Assembly (NCBI GenBank): GCA_034401795.1
Contig: CM067360.1
Location: 120,150,609-120,214,608, forward strand
Direction: 5' to 3'
From: Chaetoderma sp. LZ-2023a
Lineage: Eukaryota; Mollusca; Caudofoveata; Chaetodermatida; Chaetodermatidae
Length of the DNA: 64,000 bases
The position numbers and the translations under genes were made by a program. Below are positions 1,140-62,518 of this stretch, piece after piece (position 1 is the first letter of the stretch; the number at the start of each line of letters is the position of its first letter). Under the pieces are notes generated by a model. It was not told the origin of the DNA. It made no database searches and saw only the letters and a list, made by a program, of their open reading frames with translations.

Positions 1140-2455
1140 GTATTGATTGACTGTCTGGCTGCTTTAGAGTTTGATTGATTTATTGATTGCTTGGTTGGTT
1201 GCTTGAGTCTTACTTGATTTGACAGGTTGCTTGATTTGATTGTTTGTTTGAGTTGATTGCTTGCATGACTTGTTATTTGACCTGATTGGTTGCGTGATTT
1301 GATCTGATTGGTTGCGTGATTTATTGCTTGAATTGGGTGCATGATTTGTTGCTTGAATTGATTGGTTGCATGATTTGTTGCTTGAATTGATTGGTTACGT
1401 GATTGGTTGCTTGAATTGATTGGGAGCGACAGATTGATTGAAATTGATTGAAATTGATTGAAATTGATTGAAATTGATTGAAATTGATTGAAATTGATTG
1501 AAATTGATTGAAATTGATTGATTATTGATTGATTATTGATTGATTAAGATTGATTAAGATTGATTAAGATTGATTAAGATTGATTAAGATTGATTAAGAT
1601 TGATTAAGATTGATTAAGATTGATTAAGATTGATTAAGCTTGATTAAGATTGATCGAGATTGATCGAGATTGATTAAGATTGACTGATTGACTGGGATTT
1701 TCCTGATTAACTGGGGGCTTGAGTTGATTGATTGATTGATTGATTTGATTGCTTGCGTAACCTGTTGCTTGATTGGTTACATGATGTGTTGCTTGAATTG
1801 ATTGGTTGCATGATTGGTTGTTTGAATTGATTGATTGCGTGATTGATTATTTGATGTGAGTGGTTGCGTGACTTGTTGTTTAATCTGATTGGTAGCGTGA
1901 GTAGTTGCGTGATTGATTGGCTGCTTGAATTGATTGTCTGAACTGATTGGTTGCGTGATTGATTGCTTGGATTGATAAGGTGGTTGACTGGTTGTTTGCC
2001 TATTTGCCCACTTGATTGATTGCCTGATTATTTAAGATTGATTAAGATTGATTGAGATTGATTGAGATTAATTAAGGTTGATTAAGATTAATTGAGATTA
2101 ATTAAGATTAATTGACGATAATTAAGATTAATTAAGGTTAATTAAGATTAATTGAGATTGATTGAGATTGATTAAGGTTGATTGAAACTGATTGAGATTG
2201 ATTGAAATTGATTGAAATTGATTGAGATTGATTGAAATTGATTGAAATTGATTGATATTGATTGAAATTGATTGATATTGATTGAAATTAATTGAAATTA
2301 ATTGAGATTGATTGGGATTGATTGAGATTGATTGAGATTGATTGAGATTGATTGAGATTAATTGAGATTAATTGAGATTAATTGAGATTGATTGAGATTA
2401 ATTGAGATTAATTGAGATTAATTGAGATTTAGATTGATTGATTGACTGGGATTGC
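1140..2455 (+). repeat. TTGA-based array in PLE leader, copy 1
   Basis: Starts as a diverged TTGATTGCTTGAATTGATTGG-like array (1140-1430), passes through ATTGATTGAA units (1430-1520), ATTGATTAAG units (1550-1680), a second irregular stretch (1700-2030), then ATTGATTGAG/ATTAATTGAG units (2030-2430). The plus strand is nearly devoid of C in the core arrays. The last part (2030-2460) contains no ATG before the ORF1 start at 2466. Small minus-strand ORFs here are artefacts. Confidence 0.9.
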
Positions 2456-2465
2456 TTGTGATTCC

Positions 2466-3905
2466 ATGGCTAGACCGTGCAGGGGTAGGCGAGGGGCTGG
2501 TGATGACTCTGGATCACACCACCCATCATCTGCTCATGCACGCCTGGTTAAGGTATACTACATGGTAATCCAATGTTTTCACCACCTGGGCGTGCTGAAC
2601 AAGCATCTGGACAGCGACACCGTGCCAAATGGCCTCGGTCGAAAGGTCAAGAGCTTGACAGACTTCTGTAAACCGGCGATGCCAGATGCTGAGGTCCACT
2701 TCGACATTCGTAATGTCAACTTCGAGTGGGCGAAAACAATGATTAAAACATGGGTTCGCCACTATAACTGTCAACTAGGAGTCCTCCGTTCTGAGCTACT
2801 CTCAGCCCAAACTCTTCCATATTTAGACCTCGGTCGGGCCAAGTCCACTGCAATCCATTGGGCCAAAAAGAATTATCACAGAAAATTGGATCACAATGCC
2901 ATCTCAGCATTTTATGATTGTATTAGACCACTTGATCCGAATTATAAGCCTGCTACTAAACCACTAAATGTCACCCCTGTTATCAAACCAGTACAAAATG
3001 CAAATTTAGTACAATCCGCTCATCCCAAAAAGCGGCTACATTCACCTGTAGAGGCCTCACCACCACTAAAACGACCGTCTCCCATTAGCTCTCTTCCTGG
3101 CACATCCATTGACCACAGTATTTACATTCCAGTGGATCCCTCTATGATCCCTCTACCAGACTCACCTCCACCAGCGCCGCCATTCTCTCCTGAGGATTTT
3201 CCTCCTCTCCCGCAGAGGGTGTCAAATTCTAAAGGTGCTAGTAAACAGCCTGGTCCAAGGACCCAAGCTACACCAAAGGTCCCCCAACCACGGTTCACAC
3301 CATCTCCATGCGCCAGACCAAAGAAGCCCACACCCTTGGGACAGAATAAGTTCTGGAGATTTAGAAATGAGGCCACCAACAGACCAAATTGGCAACTTCC
3401 TACCCTCGACAAAAAGATCTTGATCGTCGGAGATTCAAACTTGAGTCGGATTAATGTGGATCCCCATCCAGATACTCAGATTGCCTGTTTCCCTGGAGCA
3501 TCGATTAATGATCTCAGAACGATCATTAATAGATACACAGGGAAATTGCAACCTGAGAAAGTAGTCCTCACCATAGGAATAAATGATAGGAATAATCTAA
3601 TCTCAGCCTCCGAGTATCGACTTAGGTTATTATTCAGTATGGTACGAAAGAAATTTCCCAAGTCTATGATCTACTTCACTGAACTAAATTTCTCCGCAAC
3701 CTCGACCCCTCAGCAAAAGCAGGCACTCGATGCAATTAATCAGACTGCCGCATCAAGCAAGGCCAAGTCCCCTGAGTCCAAGGTTATTGTCATACCCAGT
3801 CTTCCTTCGACAGAATTCGAAGTGGGCCATGACAATATTCATTGGACTGAGAGGACAGCGAATGACATGTATAATAACTGGCTTGTAGCCCTTAATTTAA
3901 ACTAA
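2466..3905 (+). CDS. PLE ORF1: SGNH/GDSL-hydrolase-domain protein, intact
   Basis: 479-aa protein from ATG 2466 (MARP...), the first ATG after the TTGA array; the frame is open upstream only to a TTG at 2442. Residues about 20-165 form an unrecognised, probably helical domain. About 180-300 is proline-rich linker (PPPAPP, several KP/RP). About 315-479 is an SGNH-hydrolase fold: block I GDSN (Ser324), block III GIND (Asn373) and block V DNIH (Asp456, His459), so all four signature residues are present. Known: SGNH esterase-like domains occur in ORF1 of some CR1-type LINEs and in giant bdelloid telomeric PLEs. The substrate is unknown; a lipid or ester role, or a structural RNA-binding role, is possible. 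ORF2 begins 29 nt after the TAA, so reinitiation or a bicistronic message would be needed. Confidence 0.82.
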   Translation: MARPCRGRRGAGDDSGSHHPSSAHARLVKVYYMVIQCFHHLGVLNKHLDSDTVPNGLGRKVKSLTDFCKPAMPDAEVHFDIRNVNFEWAKTMIKTWVRHYNCQLGVLRSELLSAQTLPYLDLGRAKSTAIHWAKKNYHRKLDHNAISAFYDCIRPLDPNYKPATKPLNVTPVIKPVQNANLVQSAHPKKRLHSPVEASPPLKRPSPISSLPGTSIDHSIYIPVDPSMIPLPDSPPPAPPFSPEDFPPLPQRVSNSKGASKQPGPRTQATPKVPQPRFTPSPCARPKKPTPLGQNKFWRFRNEATNRPNWQLPTLDKKILIVGDSNLSRINVDPHPDTQIACFPGASINDLRTIINRYTGKLQPEKVVLTIGINDRNNLISASEYRLRLLFSMVRKKFPKSMIYFTELNFSATSTPQQKQALDAINQTAASSKAKSPESKVIVIPSLPSTEFEVGHDNIHWTERTANDMYNNWLVALNLN

Positions 3906-3934: not shown

Positions 3935-6203
3935 ATGGGACTGGGTAGTAATATTGTAAACCTAACCGGCTCTGCATTAGGTGAAGCAGAACAGTCACTG
4001 CTTAACTTTGGCTTGATATTTGTCCCAACACCAAAACCTAAAACAGGTTTGGATGCCGATTTAGATAATGGCTTTACTGAAACTGCTGAATTTGGTCACC
4101 GTGTGAAATTGGCAGATTTTTTTCGAAACTCCAATAGTAATATTCCACCATTCATTGAAAAAACCGGCTGGGCTCCAAACTTAAAATGTGTTGACCCAGC
4201 AATCGGTGAAAGTATAAAACTTTACTCTGAACGTATTGAAAATACTACATTTCCAAACGATCAGCAAAATTTATCCTATGAGCAACGCCAGGCCATATTA
4301 GGTTTATCTAGAAAAAGTGAAATTGTCATCAAACCTGCGGATAAAGGGTCGGCTACTGTAATAATGGATAAAGACAACTACATCAAAGAAGCGCATAGAC
4401 AGCTTAGTAATCCGAAGCATTACCGAAAACTAAATGAACCACTTTGGCAAAATAACTGTAGCAAATTCAACGAAATTCTCCAAAAAATGGTTGATAGCAA
4501 GAAGATAACTGAAAAGCAATTTACATACCTGTGCGCAAAAGATGATTTGAAACTACGTACATTTTATCTTCTTCCTAAAATCCATAAGTCTGTTGACTCA
4601 TGGACCGACCAATGACACCACAGGGCGACCCATTATTTCAGATTGTGGTTCGGAATCATATAGGATTAGTGAATTTATCGACTACCATCTTCAGCCAATT
4701 GCAAATAGACATTTTAGCTATCTGAAAAACACTGAAGACTTCCTAGCCCAGGTCTCTAAGATCTCGGTCCCTCCAAATTCATTCTTAATTACAATGGACG
4801 TCGATGCTATGTACACAAACATTGACATCGAAAAGGGTCTAAATTCAATTCGTAGAGCGTTTGCCGACTATCCTGACACAAACAGGCCCGACAGAGAAGT
4901 AATAGCTCTATTAGAGCTTAGTCTGAAGGGCAATGACTTTGAATTTGCTGGTGAAATTTTCCAACAAATTTGTGGCTGTGCAATGGGTAAGCGTTTCAGC
5001 CCAGGTTTCGCTAACCTTTACATGGCAGAGTGGGAAAAGGAAGCACTCGAAAACTGTCCAAATCAGCCGCTCATTTACCGCAGGTACCTCGATGATATTT
5101 TTATGATCTGGCAACATAGTAAGGAAGCATTTACCGAATTTCTGGCCATTCTGAATAATCATGATCCGAATATCAAGCTAAAAGCTCAAATTGATGAGCT
5201 GTCCGTAGATTTCCTGGATGTAACTTTATACAAAGGTATAAAGTATGAAACAACTGGTTACCTAGACTACAAAGTTTATTTTAAGCCAACCGACTCGCAT
5301 CAACTACTGCACAAGAAATCATTCCATCCACCGCATACTTTCAAGGGACTTGTAAAATCACAAATAATCCGTTTTCATAGAAATTCGAGTGATAAGAAAA
5401 ACTTTGAATCATCATGTTTGACCTTATTCAAAGCCCTCAAACCGAGAGGATACTCTTCTCGGTTCCTGCGTAAAATAAAGTCTGAAACTTTGCATAATTT
5501 GGAAATCATTCCGGATAATGCCAGAAATTCTCGGCCTACCAAAATTTGTCATAATCGTCCGATTATTGGTGATGGTGAATCTCGGAAATGTGAAAAGAAA
5601 AGGTGTAAATTGGATAAATTTCTTCCCTCCCAGAGTACATTCATGAGCTTTCAAAACAAAAGCAAATTTCAAATTCAGTCGAAATTAGATTGCGATTCTG
5701 AAAATGTCATTTACTTAATTTCATGCAAATTGTGTCAAAAGCAGTATGTTGGCGAAACGAAAAATCGACTATGATGCCGAGCAACTAGACACCTTTCAGA
5801 TATTAGACTAGAGGAAGACACACATGTGGCTGAACATTTTAATCTTCCTGATCATTTAGTCACTCGTGACTTTGAAATTATGCCTATCGAACAGCTACCT
5901 CTTTCAGTCACAATAGAGGAAACTGATAGACAAAGAAAACTGAGAGAATCATTTTGGATTAAAGAACTCCAAACACAATGGCCAAGGGGCATAAATTCGG
6001 ACCCAGGCCTCTCTGATCAACGTGAGATTATCCCATTTACTCTCACATACATTCGGAAAAATGTTGAAATTGCGAAAATCCTAAAGGATGAGTATCACAA
6101 AGTACAGGACAATTTAAAACAACCATTCAACAAGCGTCCGGTAATTGCATTTAAGAAAAATCCTAATCTACGCGACATCTTGGTAAAAGCGAAACTCAAA
6201 TAA
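3935..6203 (+). pseudogene. PLE ORF2: reverse transcriptase + GIY-YIG endonuclease, frameshifted and with one stop
   Basis: Would make about 755 aa. Visible RT motifs: KPADKGSATVI, YLLPKIHK, RPIISDCGS, motif A DVDAMYTNID, motif B GCAMGKRFSPGFANL, motif C YRRYLDDIF, then VDFLDVTLYKG. Next come a thumb segment (GYSSRFLRKIKSE), a Cys-containing linker (KICHNRP, RKCEKKRCK), and GIY-YIG (VIYLISCKLC, QYVGET) running to RESFWIKELQTQWPRGIN. Two breaks: single-base losses near 4608 and 4620 against copy 2 (net -2) shift the frame, and CGA to TGA at 5772-5774 interrupts the endonuclease right after KNRL; the frame continues open to 6203. The last 58 residues (6027-6200) resemble the LTY...VAF...NLRD...AKL segment that in other PLEs precedes the Cys linker, so domain order is unusual. 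Role in the family: target-primed reverse transcription of the element RNA. Confidence 0.93.
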
Positions 6204-6570
6204 GTGTTCAAAACATCAATCAATGATTTATCATTGTATACTAATCAGGCCATATGGCATCTCTTAAACAAAATTGACAATCTCAGGTGATAAAATAAGC
6301 AAAAATATTTTCAATTTTTTCAATTTTGAAAATTCTGAGCCGGTGCGTTTACAATATTACATACATACATGCCAGTGCCAGTTCCGTTATTTTATTACTT
6401 TATAAATCCATAACTTGTGTATAATATTCGTCTACATCGTCAGGCAATCTATCAGTCCTTCATTAGATCCACCTAACAAACGGTATATAGAAATCTCATC
6501 TTCTCCACATAAATCATTAAATTGAACCTATTATTACCTCTTGAATTGCATGATTGTTTGAGCAAGAAAA
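6204..6570 (+). other. PLE 3' untranslated region, copy 1
   Basis: AT-rich, no ORF. Contains a self-complementary stretch around 6305-6335 (AATTTTTTCAATTTTGAAAATT). No polyadenylation signal stands out as decisive. It is followed by pyrimidine-rich simple repeats. Copy 2 lacks this part, so its conservation cannot be checked inside the window. Confidence 0.6.
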
Positions 6571-6574
6571 CTGT

Positions 6575-7195
6575 CATTCATTCCATCCTTCCTCCCTCTA
6601 TCCTTCCCTCTACCTGTCATTTCCTCCCTTCACTCATTCATTCATTACCTCATTTCTTCATTCTTTCTAGCCTTTCTTCCTGCTTTCCATCCACTAGCAT
6701 TTGTTCGTTCGTTCGTTCGTCCGTCCGGCCGTTCGTTCGTTCGTTCGTTCGTTCGTTCGTTCGTTCGTTCGTTCGTTCGTTCGTTCGTTCGTTCGTTCGT
6801 TCGTTCGTTCGTTCGTTCGTTCGTTCGTTCGTTCGTTCGTTCTTCCCTCACTCCTTCCTCACTCCTTCCTCACTCCTTCCTCCTTCATCCCCACCTCCAT
6901 CCTTCCTTCCTTCCTTCCTTCCTTCCTTCCTTCCTTCCTTCCTCCTTCCTTCCTCCCTTCCTTCCTCCTCCCTTCCTTCCTCCCGCATCCCTCGCTCCTT
7001 CCTGCCTGCTTCATCCTCCTTCTCTCCATCCCTTCATCTATTCCTTCGAGCCATCCATCCTTCCTTCCTTCCAGCCTTCATCCCGTTCATCGTTCCTCCC
7101 TCCCATCATCCCGTCCGTCCTTCAAGCCCTCATTCCTTCCATCTTTCCTTCACCCTACCCTTCCTTCCTTCCATCCGTCCTTCCATTCGTCCATC
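6575..7195 (+). repeat. TTCC and GTTC simple-repeat block between PLE units
   Basis: Pyrimidine-rich strand: scattered TTCC/CTTC (6575-6690), a pure GTTC array of about 145 bases (6699-6842), then TTCC with CCTCC and CATCC variants (6890-7190). All long ORFs here, including one of 370 codons on the plus strand, are readings of SFVR, SFLP or GWLV repeats and not genes. Confidence 0.95.
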
Positions 7196-7197
7196 AT

Positions 7198-7505
7198 GGT
7201 TGGTTGGTTGGTTGGTTGGTTGGTTGGTTGGTTGGTTGGTTGGTGGGTTGGTGGGTTGGTTGGTTGGTTGGTTGGTTGGGTGGGTGGTTGGTTGGTTGGT
7301 TGGGTGGATGTGGGTTTGGGTGGTTGGTTGGGTGGGTGGTTGGGTGGGTGGGTGGGTGGGTGGGTGGGTGGGTGTTTGGTTGGTTGTGTGGTTGGATTAT
7401 TGGGTGGTTGGGTGGTTGATTGGATGTTCGTTTGGGTGGTTGGTTAGTTGGGTGGTCAGTTGGGCGGTTGGTTGGGTGGTTGATCGGTTGGGTGATCGGT
7501 TTGTT
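7198..7505 (+). repeat. GGTT/GGGT array opening PLE unit copy 2
   Basis: Pure GGTT to about 7245, then GGTG/GGGT mixtures. It matches 1-200. The abrupt switch from C-rich to G-rich on one strand at 7197 gives a TTCC...GGTT boundary that could fold or recombine. Confidence 0.93.
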
Positions 7506-8111
7506 CTGTCCATCCTTCTCTCCTTCTATCCTTGTATCATTCAATTATGCGATTTGCTTATTCATTCATCTGTTTTAGAGAGAAAATTACACACAAAAAT
7601 GGACTTTATTTCTCAACACAATGATAATCTTTGAAATCAATACCCACGGAAACTACTGACATTTGAGTAACTATATTACAAAGCAAAAGTTGTAATCAAA
7701 ATTACTCATTCAGATCAAAGATTTTCAAACAAGGCCATCAGTTACGTATTTCTTTGAAATGTTTTCTTTGCATTCCAAATTGTTTATTATACTTTGAAAA
7801 GGTCACTTAAGCACCTTTCAAATGATCTCACGGTTCACATCAAAGTCAGATTATTAGTTCTCTTTGAACCAGTGACCAGTCCGCCGCTAAGCCATTGAAA
7901 GTAGCTCAATCCTTAACACCTTTCCAAATTGAAACCAACGAGCTCAATTAGTCAACAATACATTACTACAATGAATTATAACACCTTATTAGCGGCGTGT
8001 ACCTCAAAGCAAACAACTTAGTAACTTTAAAGAAAATGATTAAGTCTCAAAAACGTTCACTTGGCCAATAAATAGTAGGGCAAACTGTTGGACTGGTAGA
8101 TTTGTCTAAAA

Positions 8112-8152
8112 GGCTGCTGAAGAAGTGTAATCAACACGAAACGCGTCCAGCC
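8112..8152 (+). ncRNA. Hammerhead-ribozyme-like motif, copy 2
   Basis: Identical in sequence to the copy 1 motif: GGCTG, CTGAAGA, hairpin, GAAA, CAGCC. Predicted cleavage is after 8147. Cleavage at both sites would release a 7310-nt RNA carrying both complete ORF regions of copy 1. The same deviation, an extra A before stem II, is present. Confidence 0.5.
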
Positions 8153-8449: not shown

Positions 8450-9734
8450 GTATTGATTGACTGTCTGGCTGCTTTAGAGTTTGATTGATTTATTGATTGC
8501 TTGGTTGGTTGCGTGAGTCTTACTTGATTTGACAGGTTGCTTGATTTGATTGTTTGTTTGAGTTGATTGCTTGCATGACTTGTTATTTGACCTGATTGGT
8601 TGCGTGATTTGATCTGATTGGTTGCGTGATTTATTGCTTGAATTGGGTGCATGATTTGTTGCTTGAATTGATTGGTTGCATGATTTGTTGCTTGAATTGA
8701 TTGGTTACGTGATTGGTTGCTTGAATTGATTGGGAGCGACAGATTGATTGAAATTGATTGAAATTGATTGAAATTGATTGAAATTGATTGAAATTGATTG
8801 AAATTGATTGAAATTGATTGATTATTGATTGATTATTGATTGATTATTGATTGATTAAGATTGATTAAGATTGATTAAGATTGATTAAGATTGATTAAGA
8901 TTGATTAAGATTGATCGAGATTGATCGAGATTGATCGAGATTGATTAAGATTGACTGATTGACTGATTGACTGGGATTTTCCTGATTGACTGGGGGATTG
9001 AGTTGATTGATTGATTGATTGATTTGATTGCTTGCGTAACCTGTTGCTTGATTGGTTACATGATTTGTTGCTTGAATTGATTGGTTGCGTGATTGGTTGT
9101 TTGAATTGATTGATTGCGTGATTGATTATTTGATGTGAGTGGTTGCGTGACTTGTTGTTTAATCTGATTGGTAGCGTGAGTAGTTGCGTGATTGATTGGC
9201 TGCTTGAATTGATTGTCTGAACTGATTGGTTGCGTGATTGATTGCTTGGATTGATAAGGTGGTTGACTGGTTGTTTGCCTATTTGCCCACTTGATTGATT
9301 GCCTGATTATTTAAGATTGATTAAGATTGATTGAGATTGATTGAGATTAATTAAGGTTGATTAATATTAATTGAGATTAATTAAGATTAATTGATGTTAA
9401 TTAAGATTAATTACGGTTAATTAAGATTAATTGAGATTGATTGAGATTGATTAAGGTTGATTGAAACTGATTGAGATTGATTGAAATTGATTGAAATTGA
9501 TTGAGATTGATTGAGATTGATTGAGATTGATTGAGATTGATTGAGATTGATTGAAATTGATTGAAATTGATTGAAATTGATTGAAATTAATTGAGATTGA
9601 TTGAGATTGATTGAGATTGATTGAGATTGATTGAGATTAATTGAGATTAATTGAGATTGATTGAGATTGATTGAGATTAATTGAGATTAATTGAGATTAA
9701 TTGAGATTTAGATTGATTGATTGACTGGGATTGC
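8450..9734 (+). repeat. TTGA-based array in PLE leader, copy 2
   Basis: Same sub-blocks as copy 1 with different unit numbers, net 31 bases shorter from motif to ORF1. Unlike copy 1 it has an ATG just before ORF1 (in TTGATGTTAA near 9391). Confidence 0.9.
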
Positions 9735-9744
9735 TTGTGATTCC

Positions 9745-11184
9745 ATGGCTAGACCGAGCAGGGGTAGGCGAGGGGCTGGTGATGACTCTGGATCACACCA
9801 CCCATCATCTGCTCATGCACGCCTGGTTAAGGTATACTACATGGTAATCCAATGTTTTCACCACCTGGGCGTGCTGAACAAGCATCTGGACAGCGACACC
9901 GTGCCAAATGGCCTCGGTCGAAAGGTCAAGAGCTTGACAGACTTCTGTAAACCGGCGATGCCAGATGCTGAGGTCCACTTCGACATTCGTAATGTCAACT
10001 TCGAGTGGGCGAAAACAATGATTAAAACATGGGTTCGCCACTATAACTGTCAACTAGGAGTCCTCCGTTCTGAGCTACTCTCAGCCCAAACTCTTCCATA
10101 TTTAGACCTCGGTCGGGCCAAGTCCACTGCAATCCATTGGGCCAAAAAGAAAATTGGATCACAATGCCATCTCAGCATTTTATGATTTTATTAGACCACT
10201 TGATCCGAATTATAAGCCTGCTACTAAACCACTAAATGTCACCCCTGTTATCAAACCAGTACAAAATGCAAATTTAGTACAATCCGCTCATCCCAAAAAG
10301 CGCTACATTCACCTGTAGAGGCCTCACCACCACTAAAACGTCCAGATAAACGACCGTCTCCCATTAGCTCTCTTCCTGGCACATCCATTGACCACAGTAT
10401 TTACATTCCAGTGGATCGCTCTATGATCCCTCTACCAGACTCACCTCCACCAGCGCCGCCATTCTCTCCTGAGGATTTTCCTCCTCTCCCGCAGAGGGTG
10501 TCAAATTCTAAAGGTGCTAGTAAACAGCCTGGTCCAAGGACCCAAGCTACACCAAAGGTCCCCCAACCACGGTTCACACCATCTCCATGCGCCAGACCAA
10601 AGAAGCCCACACCCTTGGGACAGAATAAGTTCTGGAGATTTAGAAATGAGGCCACCAACAGACCAAATTGGCAACTTCCTACCCTCGACAAAAAGATCTT
10701 GATCGTCGGAGATTCAAACTTGAGTCGGATTAATGTGGATCCCCATCCAGATACTCAGATTGCCTGTTTCCCTGGAGCATCGATTAATGATCTCAGAACG
10801 ATCATTAATAGATACACAGGGAAATTGCAACCTGAGAAAGTAGTCCTCACCATGGGAATAAATGATAGGAATAATCTAATCTCAGCCTCCGAGTATCGAC
10901 TTAGGTTATTATTCAGTATGGTACGAAAGAAATTTCCCAAGTCTATGATCTACTTCACTGAACTAAATTTCTCCGCAACCTCGACCCCTCAGCAAAAGCA
11001 GGCACTCGATGCAATTAATCAGACTGCCGCATCAAGCAAGGCCAAGTCCCCTGAGTCCAAGGTTATTGTCATACCCAGTCTTCCTTCGACAGAATTCGAA
11101 GTGGGCCATGACAATATTCATTGGACTGAGAGGACAGCGAATGACATGTATAATAACTGGCTTGTAGCCCTTAATTTAAACTAA
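9745..11184 (+). pseudogene. PLE ORF1 copy 2, SGNH-hydrolase domain, interrupted
   Basis: Near-identical to copy 1 ORF1. An 11-base deletion after GCCAAAAAG (about 10150), between two AGA microrepeats, shifts the frame and leads to a stop at 10183-10185. A 1-base loss near 10303 (AAGCG-CTAC) and a 12-base insertion near 10340 (GTCCAGATAAAC) follow, so the net change is zero and the downstream frame is the original one. From about 10310 to 11184 the linker and the whole SGNH domain stay open, with GDSN, GIND (the preceding Ile is Met here) and DNIH intact. The full-length product cannot be made; a start at the internal ATG 10411 would give a 257-aa SGNH-only protein. Confidence 0.85.
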
Positions 11185-11213
11185 ACTCGGGTCAAGGTAC
11201 CAACCACCCAGAA

Positions 11214-12454
11214 ATGGGACTGGGTAGTAATATTGTAAACCTAACCGGCTCTGCATTAGGTGAAGCAGAACAGTCACTGCTTAACTTTGGCTTGACATTT
11301 GTCCCAACACCAAAACCTAAAACAGGTTTGGATGCCGATTTAGATAATGGCTTTACTGAAACTGCTGAATTTGGTCACCGTGTGAAATTGGCAGATTTTT
11401 TTCGAAACTCCAATAGTAATATTCCACCATTCATTGAAAAAACCGGCTGGGCTCCAAACTTAAAATGTGTTGACCCAGCAATCGGTGAAAGTATAAAACT
11501 TTACTCTGAACGTATTGAAAATACTACATTTCCAAACGATCAGCAAAATTTATCCTATGAGCAACGCCAGGCCATATTAGGTTTATCTAGAAAAAGTGAA
11601 ATTGTCATCAAACCTGCGGATAAAGGGTCGGCTACTGTAATAAAAGATAAAGACAACTACATCAAAGAAGCGCATAGACAGCTTAGTAATCCGAAGCATT
11701 ACCGAAAACTAAATGAACCACTTTGGCAAAATAACTGTAGCAAATTCAACGAAATTCTCCAAAAAATGGTTGATAGCAAGAAGATAACTGAAAAGCAATT
11801 TAAATACCTGTGCGCAAAAGATGATTCGAAACCACGTACATTTTATCTTCTTCCTAAAATCCATAAGTCTGTTGACTCATGGACCGACCCAATGACACCA
11901 CCAGGGCGACCCATTATTTCAGATTGTGGTTCGGAATCATATAGGATTAGTGAATTTATCGACTACCATCTTCAGCCAATTGCAAATAGACATTTTAGCT
12001 ATCTGAAAAACACTGAAGACTTCCTAGTCCAGGTCTCTAAGATCTCGGTCCCTCCAAATTCATTCTTAATTACAATGGACGTCGATGCTATGTACACAAA
12101 CATTGACATCGAAAAGGGTCTAAATTCAATTCGTAGAGCGTTTGCCGACTATCCTGACACAAACAGGCCCGACAGAGAAGTAATAGCTCTAGTAGAGCTT
12201 AGTCTGAAGGGCAATGACTTTGAATTTGCTGGTGAAATTTTCCAACAAATTTGTGGCTGTGCAATGGGTAAGCGTTTCAGCCCAGGTTTCGCTAACCTTT
12301 ACATGGCAGAGTGGGAAAAGGAAGCACTCGAAAACTGTCCAAATCAGCCGCTCATTTACCGCAGGTACCTCGATGATATTTTTATGATCTGGCAACATAG
12401 TAAGGAAGCATTTACCGAATTTCTGGCCATTCTGAATAATCATGATCCGAATAT
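11214..12454 (+). pseudogene. PLE ORF2 copy 2, reverse transcriptase truncated after motif C
   Basis: Open for 414 PLE-derived residues without the frameshift seen in copy 1. KPADKGSATVI at about 133-143, YLLPKIHK at 211-218, GRPIIS at 231-236, motif A DVDAMYTNID at 289-298, motif B CAMGKRFSP at 349-357, and YLDD at 385-388. After DPNI (residue 414) the frame runs for 44 codons through the unrelated A repeat and stops at 12590. Thumb and endonuclease are absent, so it is not autonomous. It serves as a reference for the ancestral frame at the copy 1 break. Confidence 0.93.
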
Positions 12455-12900: not shown

Positions 12901-13014
12901 ATCATGTCTTTGCAAAAGCTTGACTACATCGACACCTTCTTATCCTCTGACTCAGGCTTGGCCCGTCCACCTCCTAACATTGTCTCCCCTTCTTGCTTTT
13001 ATTTACAAACTACC

Positions 13015-13119
13015 CAGATAATGCAGCTTACTGGGCTGGTGCTGGGCCGATACCGGGCCGATACTCAAAGTATCGGCCCGGTATTGGCCCAGCATCGGCC
13101 CAGTAAGCTGCATTATCTG
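13015..13119. repeat. 105-bp near-perfect palindrome (MITE-like hairpin)
   Basis: Two 51-base arms with three mismatches around a 3-base CAA loop; ends CAGATAATGCAG / CTGCATTATCTG. Each arm carries GGGCCGATAC twice. Weaker half-copies (TTGGCCCAGTAGTGG...TTACATTATC) occur at about 38020-38075 and 47900-47945. It is much more GC-rich than its surroundings. Probably a foldback element. Confidence 0.85.
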
Positions 13120-13955
13120 CGTATGTCACCATCTGGCAAGATAGTCAGTTAGAACATCACTATTTATTTATAAGCAATGTCTTTAGGGAAAAAAAGGAAA
13201 AACTAATCGGAATGATCCCATCTGCCACTCAAGTATATGATGTCATATTAAAATATGTAGCAGTTTAGCTAATGTCACGATTAAAATACAGTGTATTCCA
13301 AACCTAACCTTCAATTCCATAGTGCAGAAAATCACCAATGCTCTCCCACTCTACGTATGGCTGCATGTTCCACTTCACGTTGTATTCACACCATCGCAGG
13401 TTAATACTGCACACACACACCCCACCCCCACCCACTGCAATGCGTCATCATGAAACGGTAGCCAATGAGTGTAACTCCCAGCTGTGTTGGTGTTGTTAAT
13501 CTGCCAATGGCAGCAATATAGTCTCCATATAAAATCTAAATTAGCGGCAATAAAGCTACTCTGAACCCAGTAATTCTACCAACATCAAATTCAGAAAGTG
13601 GTCATCTTGTATTTCAAACGTAATTTAGGATGAGCATGATGAACATGTGCATGTGGTTACAGAAGCAACACAGTCATTGTTGTTTCCAACTTTCAATGTG
13701 GGAAAGCCAAGATGCATATTGTAAATCTTTTGGAGATATAGCTATTATATGTATATGACCATGATGCAAAGCTTTCATTTTGCAAAAAAGAGTAAAAAAT
13801 TCAATAAGGTGATTCATAGCGTAAGATATTTATACATGCTCACATTTTTGAAAAAAATTGTTAGGGTGCCTATGTGACTTACTAGGTTAAGTTCTAACTA
13901 TTTACCAACCAATTGGCAAACAATACCCACCCAGTTCTCCAGAATTGCCTTGGAA
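13120..13955. other. Intergenic, no gene seen
   Basis: AT-rich unique-looking sequence with a CACACA/CACCCC run near 13410-13435. No convincing coding frame, RNA gene or element end. Confidence 0.5.
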
Positions 13956-60853: not shown

Positions 60854-62518
60854 TATACACCTGTGCAAAAGTTAAGCACCACCCTATTTTTACGCACATG
60901 CGAGGGTATATTCATGTGCTATGAAGAAAGCAATAGCATAAACATTTATGTACCCATCCATCTTAGTGCAAGAGGTAATAATGCAACTAGAGGAATGCTG
61001 ATTATGATGGTGGGGAAACACTGTATGTTTTTGTTTGAACTTGAAAACGAGGCCTGAATATGGTTACGTTGACACAACTGACAACTATTGCCCTACAGTT
61101 GACACACGTGGCTAGATTGTCATTAATGGTGTCTGAAAACGAAGTTTAACATCTGTGCACGAGTTTGAGACTGTCATTATTAATACCGGGTATATCCACC
61201 TTGTGCCTGGATGACGGCCTGGACACGACGTCTCATGCTGGTCACCAACCGACTGATACGCCATTGTGGTATTCGTTGCCATTCAAGATGGAGTGCGTCT
61301 GTTAATTCCTGTAGGTTCTGCACAGGAGGATCCCTCCTTCTCACCATGTTTCCCAGAATGTCCCAGATATGCTCAATAGGGTTCATGTCAAGGCTCCTTG
61401 CTGGCCATGGTAGGGTTTCGATGGCATTCTGGCGGAGGTATTCATGCACAGCTCTAGCACGATGTGGTCGGGCGTTGTCATCCATGAATATAGGGTGGGT
61501 TCCAGGTGCATGATTTACAAAATGAGGGACCACAACTCTATCCAGTATGGAAGCTTGATATCTTTGTCCATTTAGTGTTCCAGGTACAGTCAACAGATCC
61601 AGCTTACAATCAAATGAGATGCACCCCCATATCATAACGGAACCTCCACCAAATGGAATTTCTTCCATGATGTTACGTTGGTCGTACGCCGTGCGTCTGG
61701 ACGTCCATACACGAGTTCGACCATCTGTGGCATGAAGCAGGAACCGACTTTCATCGGACCAGTGTACCCGTCTCCAGGATCTCATGTTCCAGTGTCTTCT
61801 TTCGTTGCACCACCTCAGACGCTCCTCTTTGTGGTGTGCAGTGAGGAGAGGACGTCTGACAGGTCTCCTAGCCTTCATGCCAGCAGCATACAGTCTCCTT
61901 TTGACGGTAGACATTGACACTCTATTGCGCGTTTCCCATTGCTGGCTGAGCACTCTGCTGTTGGTGAATGGAGATCTCCTAACAAGGTGTACTAGGGCTC
62001 GATCATCACGGGCAGTAGTCTTCTTCGGTCTTCCAGATCTAGGCCTGTCCTTCACCTCGTTAGTTTGCCCATGTTTTGCAATCAAACGACTGATTACAGT
62101 ATGGTTAATGTTCAGCTGTCTGCCAATCTCTCTGCATGACATACCAGTGGTATGCATGCCTATGATTTGCCAATTCACACGATCACTTAACCTTCGTCTT
62201 GCCATAGCGGCTCACAATCAAGAGCTAATTCTCTCTGTACAAATAAACCACGGTCATGAACACAAAATTCCTAATCTTGTCGCCTAAATCTGTGTGTAAT
62301 GTTCTACACCTCAAACTGGACTTTTACATAACTGAACACGTGTGCTGTTTCCCGCCACGCACAGACATCAAGCGGCGTGAAGTCATGCATGCATGTGCAT
62401 TTCGTACTTGGAATTATGTCAGCTAACGCGGAGACAAAAAGTATGGCAGCCTAGTTGTACCATCATGTTTCTACGTTCTATTGTTTTTGCTGGTGCTTAA
62501 CTTTTGCACAGGTGTATA
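60854..62518 (-). mobile_element. Tc1-family DNA transposon, apparently intact
   Basis: The first 28 bases (TATACACCTGTGCAAAAG...CACCA) are the perfect reverse complement of the last 28 (TGGTGCTTAACTTTTGCACA...TATA, ending 62518). TA dinucleotides at both edges fit the Tc1 TA target duplication. One open transposase gene on the minus strand. Total about 1.66 kb, normal for Tc1. Perfect ends and an open ORF indicate recent insertion. Confidence 0.95.
61180..62205 (-). CDS. Tc1 transposase, DD34E, full length
   Basis: 341 aa, open from ATG 62205 (MARRRLSDR) to the stop at 61180-61182. It cuts and inserts the element at TA sites in the nucleus. Residues about 8-50 form the first helix-turn-helix (TTGMSCREIGRQLNINHTVI), RSGRPKK at 56-62 is a GRPR-type minor-groove motif, about 66-118 is the second helix-turn-helix. 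The catalytic domain has Asp151 (HWSDESRF), Asp243 (FMDDNARPHRA) and Glu278 (DMNPIEHIWD), giving 34 residues between the second Asp and Glu, the Tc1 signature. The glycine-rich GGGSVMIWG lies at 186-194. Length, motifs and spacing are all normal, no stop or frameshift. The gene lies within the 28-bp terminal repeats; no intron. Confidence 0.97.
   Translation of the reverse strand: MARRRLSDRVNWQIIGMHTTGMSCREIGRQLNINHTVISRLIAKHGQTNEVKDRPRSGRPKKTTARDDRALVHLVRRSPFTNSRVLSQQWETRNRVSMSTVKRRLYAAGMKARRPVRRPLLTAHHKEERLRWCNERRHWNMRSWRRVHWSDESRFLLHATDGRTRVWTSRRTAYDQRNIMEEIPFGGGSVMIWGCISFDCKLDLLTVPGTLNGQRYQASILDRVVVPHFVNHAPGTHPIFMDDNARPHRARAVHEYLRQNAIETLPWPARSLDMNPIEHIWDILGNMVRRRDPPVQNLQELTDALHLEWQRIPQWRISRLVTSMRRRVQAVIQAQGGYTRY

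Follow-up and report, generated by a model that had tools for sequence, protein, structure and literature searches.

A PLE Family of the Caudofoveate Chaetoderma with a Conserved Segment Placed after the GIY-YIG Endonuclease

The PLE Array and Its Open Reading Frames

The DNA analyzed here, called the window, is a stretch of 64,000 nt from Chaetoderma sp. LZ-2023a (GCA_034401795.1, contig CM067360.1, positions 120,150,609-120,214,608, forward strand). Its left end holds a tandem array of a Penelope-like element (PLE) with a period of about 7.27-7.31 kb, an arrangement in tandem or partial tandem that is characteristic of PLEs. Copies A and B of the array are 98.5% identical over 2,887 aligned bases. 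Unit spacings near 7 kb also occur at several other loci of the genome, as found in a DNA search with window positions 5000-6300. All features of the element described below lie on the + strand.

In copy A, ORF1 (2442-3905) has a C-terminal SGNH/GDSL esterase-like domain (about 3483-3800), which matches Pfam PF13472 with E 2.3e-5 and 25.4 bits, under the cut-off of 32.9. The best PDB sequence match of ORF1 is 4c1b ('ORF1-encoded protein'), at E 0.036. ORF2 (3935-6203) comprises the RT, the Cys linker, the GIY-YIG endonuclease and the relocated segment that is the subject of this study. It is broken in the window by a frame shift near 4600-4620 and by an in-frame TGA at 5772-5774, the downstream reading frame covering 4593-6203. 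Selenocysteine was considered at this TGA and dropped, as none of the seven further loci fetched from this family has a stop there.

The RT of ORF2 is related to telomerase RT, as in other PLEs. Its part in the second frame, including the thumb, extends from 4623 to 5513, with the arginine codon of the thumb motif RGYSSRFLRKI at 5445. Alignment places a short link of ~30 residues (5493-5585), which in the model overlaps with the last part of the thumb, at the site where canonical proteins have a stretch running from LTY to NLRD. The Cys linker and GIY-YIG endonuclease typical of PLEs follow at 5586-5996: the first cysteine lies at 5589, YVGET at 5745-5759, and the endonuclease ends in WPRGIN, with the asparagine codon at 5994. 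Pfam detects the GIY-YIG domain below threshold (E 0.1) on the piece before the TGA. Behind the endonuclease comes a C-terminal extension, or tail, of 68 residues (5997-6203), containing the homologous segment (6030-6197) and the stop (6201-6203). Copy B, whose unit starts at about 7303, has a broken ORF1 and an ORF2 from 11214 (9721-12454 together). It breaks off within the RT, at about 12454, and lacks both endonuclease and tail; copy A is the only PLE copy in the window that reaches the tail.

A strict motif search revealed a minimal hammerhead-ribozyme-like motif upstream of ORF1 (802-842) and a second one in tandem unit B (8112-8152). These are the only two matches in the first 16 kb, compared to none in 200 Markov-1 resamples. 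The motif is composed of a stem I of 5 bp, a CTGAAGA core, a stem II of 4 bp, GAA, a very short stem III and a GTC cleavage triplet; the palindrome ACGCGT forms the minimal stem III in both units. Rfam, with thresholds up to E 5 and 10, gave no match for the motif of either unit. Long simple repeats, (TTCG)n and (TTGG)n, occupy 6700-7550 within the tandem unit, behind ORF2 and ahead of the next hammerhead-like motif. Elsewhere in the window, a 341-aa open frame at 61180-62205 (-) resembles a Tc1/mariner-type transposase by eye, and a near-perfect GC-rich palindrome at 13011-13123, with several sub-threshold Rfam miRNA matches, is probably a hairpin repeat.

The Relocated Segment and the Domain Order of ORF2

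A reading made from the sequence alone had proposed that a segment lying between RT and Cys linker in other C-terminal-endonuclease PLEs had moved behind the endonuclease in ORF2. The canonical order on which this reading relied is found both in further PLE families of this genome and in L010, a contig in the assembly of a Bathymodiolus symbiont that starts inside a PLE, holds no RT and presumably represents host contamination. L010 shows the order segment, Cys linker, endonuclease. A BLASTP comparison with the window's ORF2 gave two HSPs in swapped order: residues 22-79 of L010, before its Cys linker, match window positions 6030-6197, while residues 86-223, its Cys linker and endonuclease, match 5571-5996 (E 2e-25). 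The Smith-Waterman score of the tail against L010 was 89, and the best score among 5,000 shuffles was 54.

The intact ORF2 of locus L015, a member of the window's family that is referred to as W, gave a similar picture. When compared with the canonical ORF of L054, W residues 7-515 correspond to 135-658, residues 700-755 to 683-740 and residues 553-688 to 760-894. At E 0.01, an HSP to the tail was obtained in 8 of 12 canonical ORFs of the genome, each time before the Cys linker and, wherever an RT is present, between RT and Cys linker. At the same threshold the tail HSP was missed in the other four, i.e., L053 (a short frame), L055, L062 and L063; in the last three the segment is nonetheless visible at its canonical place, for L063 also by alignment. 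A profile built from five canonical segments has a single match in the ORF2 of W, at residues 700-755 (E 1.1e-11), and the best of 1,000 shuffled ORF2s reached E 0.029.

By BLASTP, shuffles and profile, the terminal residues are homologous to the canonical segment, and the C-terminal-endonuclease PLE families under comparison all conserve this segment. The swapped HSPs and the profile match bear out the order RT–Cys linker–GIY-YIG–segment, and the window's ORF2 departs from the canonical architecture, in which the segment joins the thumb to the Cys linker and the endonuclease closes the protein. The proposal that all this stands in one open frame holds downstream of the TGA and in seven other loci of the family, and fails across the whole ORF2 of the window.

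Searches in other sequence collections added little. Viral contigs contained no usable relatives, the eight pattern matches not being PLEs, and phages yielded nothing usable (a single weak match, covering 35% of the query). Sequence searches of the PDB found no relative for an ORF2 piece, and none for L010, whose single match (E 1.8) was an antibody chain.

Permuted and Canonical Families in the Genome

The genome searched comprises 2.44 Gb in 2,753 contigs. With window positions 5000-6300 as a DNA query, 43 matches were scored out of 3,635 first-look candidates. Forty of these, including the window's own, span at least 1,299 of the 1,301 bases at 99-100% identity, and three are partial; no copy of the family was seen with the segment before the Cys linker. 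Eight loci of the family were fetched, and seven of them have an intact frame of 769 codons (stop-to-stop) ending in the segment, the eighth being the broken window copy. The window's family is a young, high-copy PLE family. Neither finding that would have refuted the sequence-only reading turned up: no family copy with the segment in front of the Cys linker, and no lack of kinship between tail and canonical segment.

A protein query in which the L010 pieces were joined in swapped order was matched contiguously at all 150 scored places, of 15,210 candidates. Because the query was built to put permuted places at the top, the result demonstrates their existence and abundance, not their share. 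The ten loci fetched from it (two of which, L070 and L071, resemble a single locus represented on two contigs) form a second family with the same order, and three further places listed by the query also fit this family when fetched. At the six loci measured, its protein is 83.5-84.8% identical to that of the window's family.

The long open frames of canonical order fall into four families told apart by sequence: F1 (L052, L053, L059), F2 (L054, L058, L061, L062), F3 (L056, L057) and F4 (L055, L063); L060 has no suitable frame. The Cys-endonuclease part of the window's element is 36-43% identical to that of F1, F2 and F4, and in F3 it is contained within one long HSP. L010 as a query, which ranks the canonical order first, was colinear with 150 of 150 scored places, of 15,482 candidates. 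With an F4 ORF as query, 58 places were scored out of 21,660 candidates; each is a near-identical F4 copy with the canonical order, and none of the 58 is a relative nearer to the window's family.

Altogether, 80 loci were fetched, with 84 endonuclease hits. The segment precedes the endonuclease in 53 hits, follows it in 21, is found on both sides in none and on neither side in 10. The latter class, defined as having no segment within 300 nt, consists of L009, L011-L013, L083 and L088 together with second hits in L026, L032, L034 and L040. All 21 cases with the segment behind the endonuclease are loci of the two permuted families, and the position is constant in 21 of 21 fetched loci of these families. 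The tally did not change when the permuted families were omitted from the segment profile, also at E 10. The permuted order is kept in every examined copy of two related families, where other PLE families of the genome have the canonical order.

An intermediate with a duplicated segment was searched for by means of a query flanked by the segment on either side. None of the 142 scored places (of 15,274 candidates) has both segments in an open frame; 34 places are matched from the Cys linker up to the rear segment, and 108 beginning with the front segment. Of the latter, eight continue beyond the endonuclease, to positions 213-257 of 272, every one of them crossing one or more stop codons. Four of these eight lie in fetched loci (L022, L026, L027/L059, L081), and there no segment is present behind the endonuclease.

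Selection on the Segment

To estimate constraint, Nei-Gojobori dN/dS values were calculated for L015 against six of the 13 second-family loci (L065, L072-L076), while L018, L019 and L021, of the same family as L015, were left out of the ranges because they differ too little from it. For these six loci, which come from one family and are not mutually independent, dN/dS is 0.031-0.053 in the relocated segment (56 codons), 0.059-0.085 in the whole tail (68 codons), 0.070-0.083 in the RT and 0.080-0.087 in the Cys linker and endonuclease, compared to 0.275-0.350 in the link at the vacated site (31 codons). The underlying dS is about 0.8-1.5, values near 1 being close to saturation, and 0.5-0.6 in the link. 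The low value of the segment and the higher one of the link indicate that the segment is constrained like the catalytic parts and that its former place is more relaxed. As the moved segment is preserved as strongly as the enzyme domains, the swap seems to be a functional arrangement; it does not look like damage to a copy. Purifying selection maintains RT–Cys linker–GIY-YIG–segment as a variant of the PLE domain order.

From the window alone, the tail could be taken for junk read-through in one degenerate copy with a chance likeness to the segment, since the copy is broken by a frame shift and an in-frame TGA and no other copy in the window reaches the tail. This explanation is hardly credible: the tail is intact in seven of eight fetched loci, 40 of 43 scored genome matches keep the order, the segment has a dN/dS of 0.03-0.05, and its profile match (E 1e-11) stands against 0.03 for the best of 1,000 shuffles. 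Genome matches, dN/dS and profile together already refute it.

RT Phylogeny, Structure Models and Origin of the Permuted Order

In an RT tree of nine rows, W groups with the C-terminal-endonuclease families (100/100), and the RTs of elements with an N-terminal endonuclease form a separate clade (100/100). Within the C-terminal-endonuclease group, the branch point of W relative to F1-F4 is weakly supported (66/61), with the canonical rows on one side of the branch; given this position, the direction of change is something we infer.

The permuted order would have arisen once, in an ancestor of canonical type, although this step is less firm than the others. It is improbable that the order with the segment behind the endonuclease is ancestral for C-terminal-endonuclease PLEs and that the canonical families were rearranged. 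The support of 66/61 leaves room for this polarity, but the segment precedes the endonuclease in F1-F3, in the distant F4 and in L010 alike, and the canonical rows share one side of the branch, albeit with the same weak support.

The main rival explanation has the segment come from outside its own lineage: the canonical one was lost, and template switching added the copy of another PLE family at the C-terminus. The genome is rich in PLEs, with several co-resident families, and the tail, with 27-33% identity to L010, F1, F2 and F3, is not clearly closest to any of them, as would fit such an event. Against this, no donor was identified among the families compared, and the segment, at about 58 residues, lacks the length needed for a tree to tell the two origins apart. 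Capture is rather unlikely, yet deserves to be kept in mind. Considered as a whole, a selected domain-order variant in which the segment is a separate module, with a single origin in a canonical-type ancestor, very probably provides the best explanation.

The simplest route to this order would be an in-frame duplication of the block segment–Cys–endonuclease, by template jumping or by unequal exchange in tandem arrays. The first segment would then have been lost, and the protein truncated after the second one. In textbook accounts, circular permutations arise in this way, by duplication and then reciprocal loss.

Fold prediction, suggested as a check by the sequence-only reading, produced models that are too weak around the segment to place its docking. 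AlphaFold mean pLDDT is 60.9 for W and 61.5 for the canonical protein. In the W model pLDDT is below 50 for residues 682-715 and 724-756; in the canonical model it is moderate for 607-630 and below 50 at 586-606 and 642-671. In the canonical model, whose segment begins at 599, the furthest-reaching TERT alignments (rmsd 5.0-9.7) end at 589-592; in the W model they extend to 525-527. In these models the segment would lie outside the TERT-like fold.

The segment, modeled at low confidence, would be a small module of mostly helical structure, distinct from the telomerase-like RT and its thumb. Because a segment placed directly after the endonuclease stays beside that block, a role with the endonuclease, or at the interface between RT and endonuclease, is favored, and the segment probably acts together with the Cys linker and endonuclease or at this interface. 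If it works with the endonuclease block, it would tolerate being joined to either end of that block. Target binding, dimer contact and strand hand-over during target-primed reverse transcription are candidate roles; the PLE literature passages covered assign none to it. In the anole PLE, both strands are cleaved and RT initiation is internal, and helices 232-250 and 795-818 meet in the predicted dimer (PMC11167929). As a natural permutation under strong selection parts the segment from the RT thumb and joins it to the endonuclease block, its role becomes directly testable. On balance, it is reasonably probable that a third PLE architecture exists in at least two high-copy families, that the segment is an autonomous functional module serving the endonuclease block from whichever end it is attached, and that the C-terminal half of the protein can be circularly permuted without loss of activity.

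Comparison with Known PLEs

The window's element shares several features with the canonical C-terminal-endonuclease PLEs, i.e., Neptune and Penelope/Poseidon, the latter including PAc of the green anole (PMC11167929): a telomerase-like RT, a C-terminal GIY-YIG and tandem units. Upstream it has a candidate for the hammerhead ribozyme motif that PLEs carry near the unit start. It differs from the canonical families fetched here in that their segment lies between thumb and Cys linker and their protein ends soon after the endonuclease, whereas in the window's family the segment follows. The SGNH/GDSL esterase-like ORF that accompanies it is reminiscent of Neptune-like PLEs of fish and molluscs, for which esterases are mentioned (PMC5408684).

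In the literature searched, which lay apart from the main paper on permuted PLEs and its Hydra clade, no description of the order RT–Cys linker–GIY-YIG–segment was found. The Hydra clade of Craig et al. (2021) reportedly consists of metazoan PLEs with a C-terminal endonuclease, and the window's element could be a member of it. A permuted domain order is also what likens the element to PLEs with an N-terminal endonuclease (Naiad/Chlamys), which Craig et al. are said to have described in the same work. L009 and L011-L013, which we take to be of Naiad type, sit in bacterial MAG contigs (Planctomycetota, Halanaerobiales, Flavobacteriaceae, Maribacter) that are presumably eukaryotic contamination.

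In these four loci a similar-looking stretch comes after the N-terminal endonuclease, and it is conceivable that a Naiad-type order was turned round, the block Cys–endonuclease–segment having moved whole from before the RT to after it. The stretch of L011 gives p 0.014 with the tail and 0.03 with the L010 segment (5,000 shuffles), the BLASTP E-value is 0.06, and a two-row profile of the segment also lands there, at 0.8 bits. For L009, L012 and L013, in contrast, p with the tail is 0.09-0.7; hhalign finds nothing, the five-row profile reports none of the four loci at E 10, and the RT of W belongs with the C-terminal-endonuclease families. Such a turn is quite improbable, slightly more so than an ancestral rear position. 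The related idea of a cyclic order, in which the segment would correspond to the stretch behind the N-terminal endonuclease, is not supported at present: L011 offers hints, and L009, L012 and L013 show none there. L013 as a query of the element's own genome gave 47 scored places of 12,059 candidates, all within residues 27-252 of 967 and none reaching the RT.

Since its endonuclease follows the RT and its RT falls outside the N-terminal-endonuclease clade, W is not of Naiad type. The selected domain-order variant represents a second kind of PLE domain permutation, beside the N-terminal endonuclease, and it would mislead repeat annotation based on domain order. While in L009 and L011-L013 the endonuclease is found before the RT, the window's family has it after the RT.
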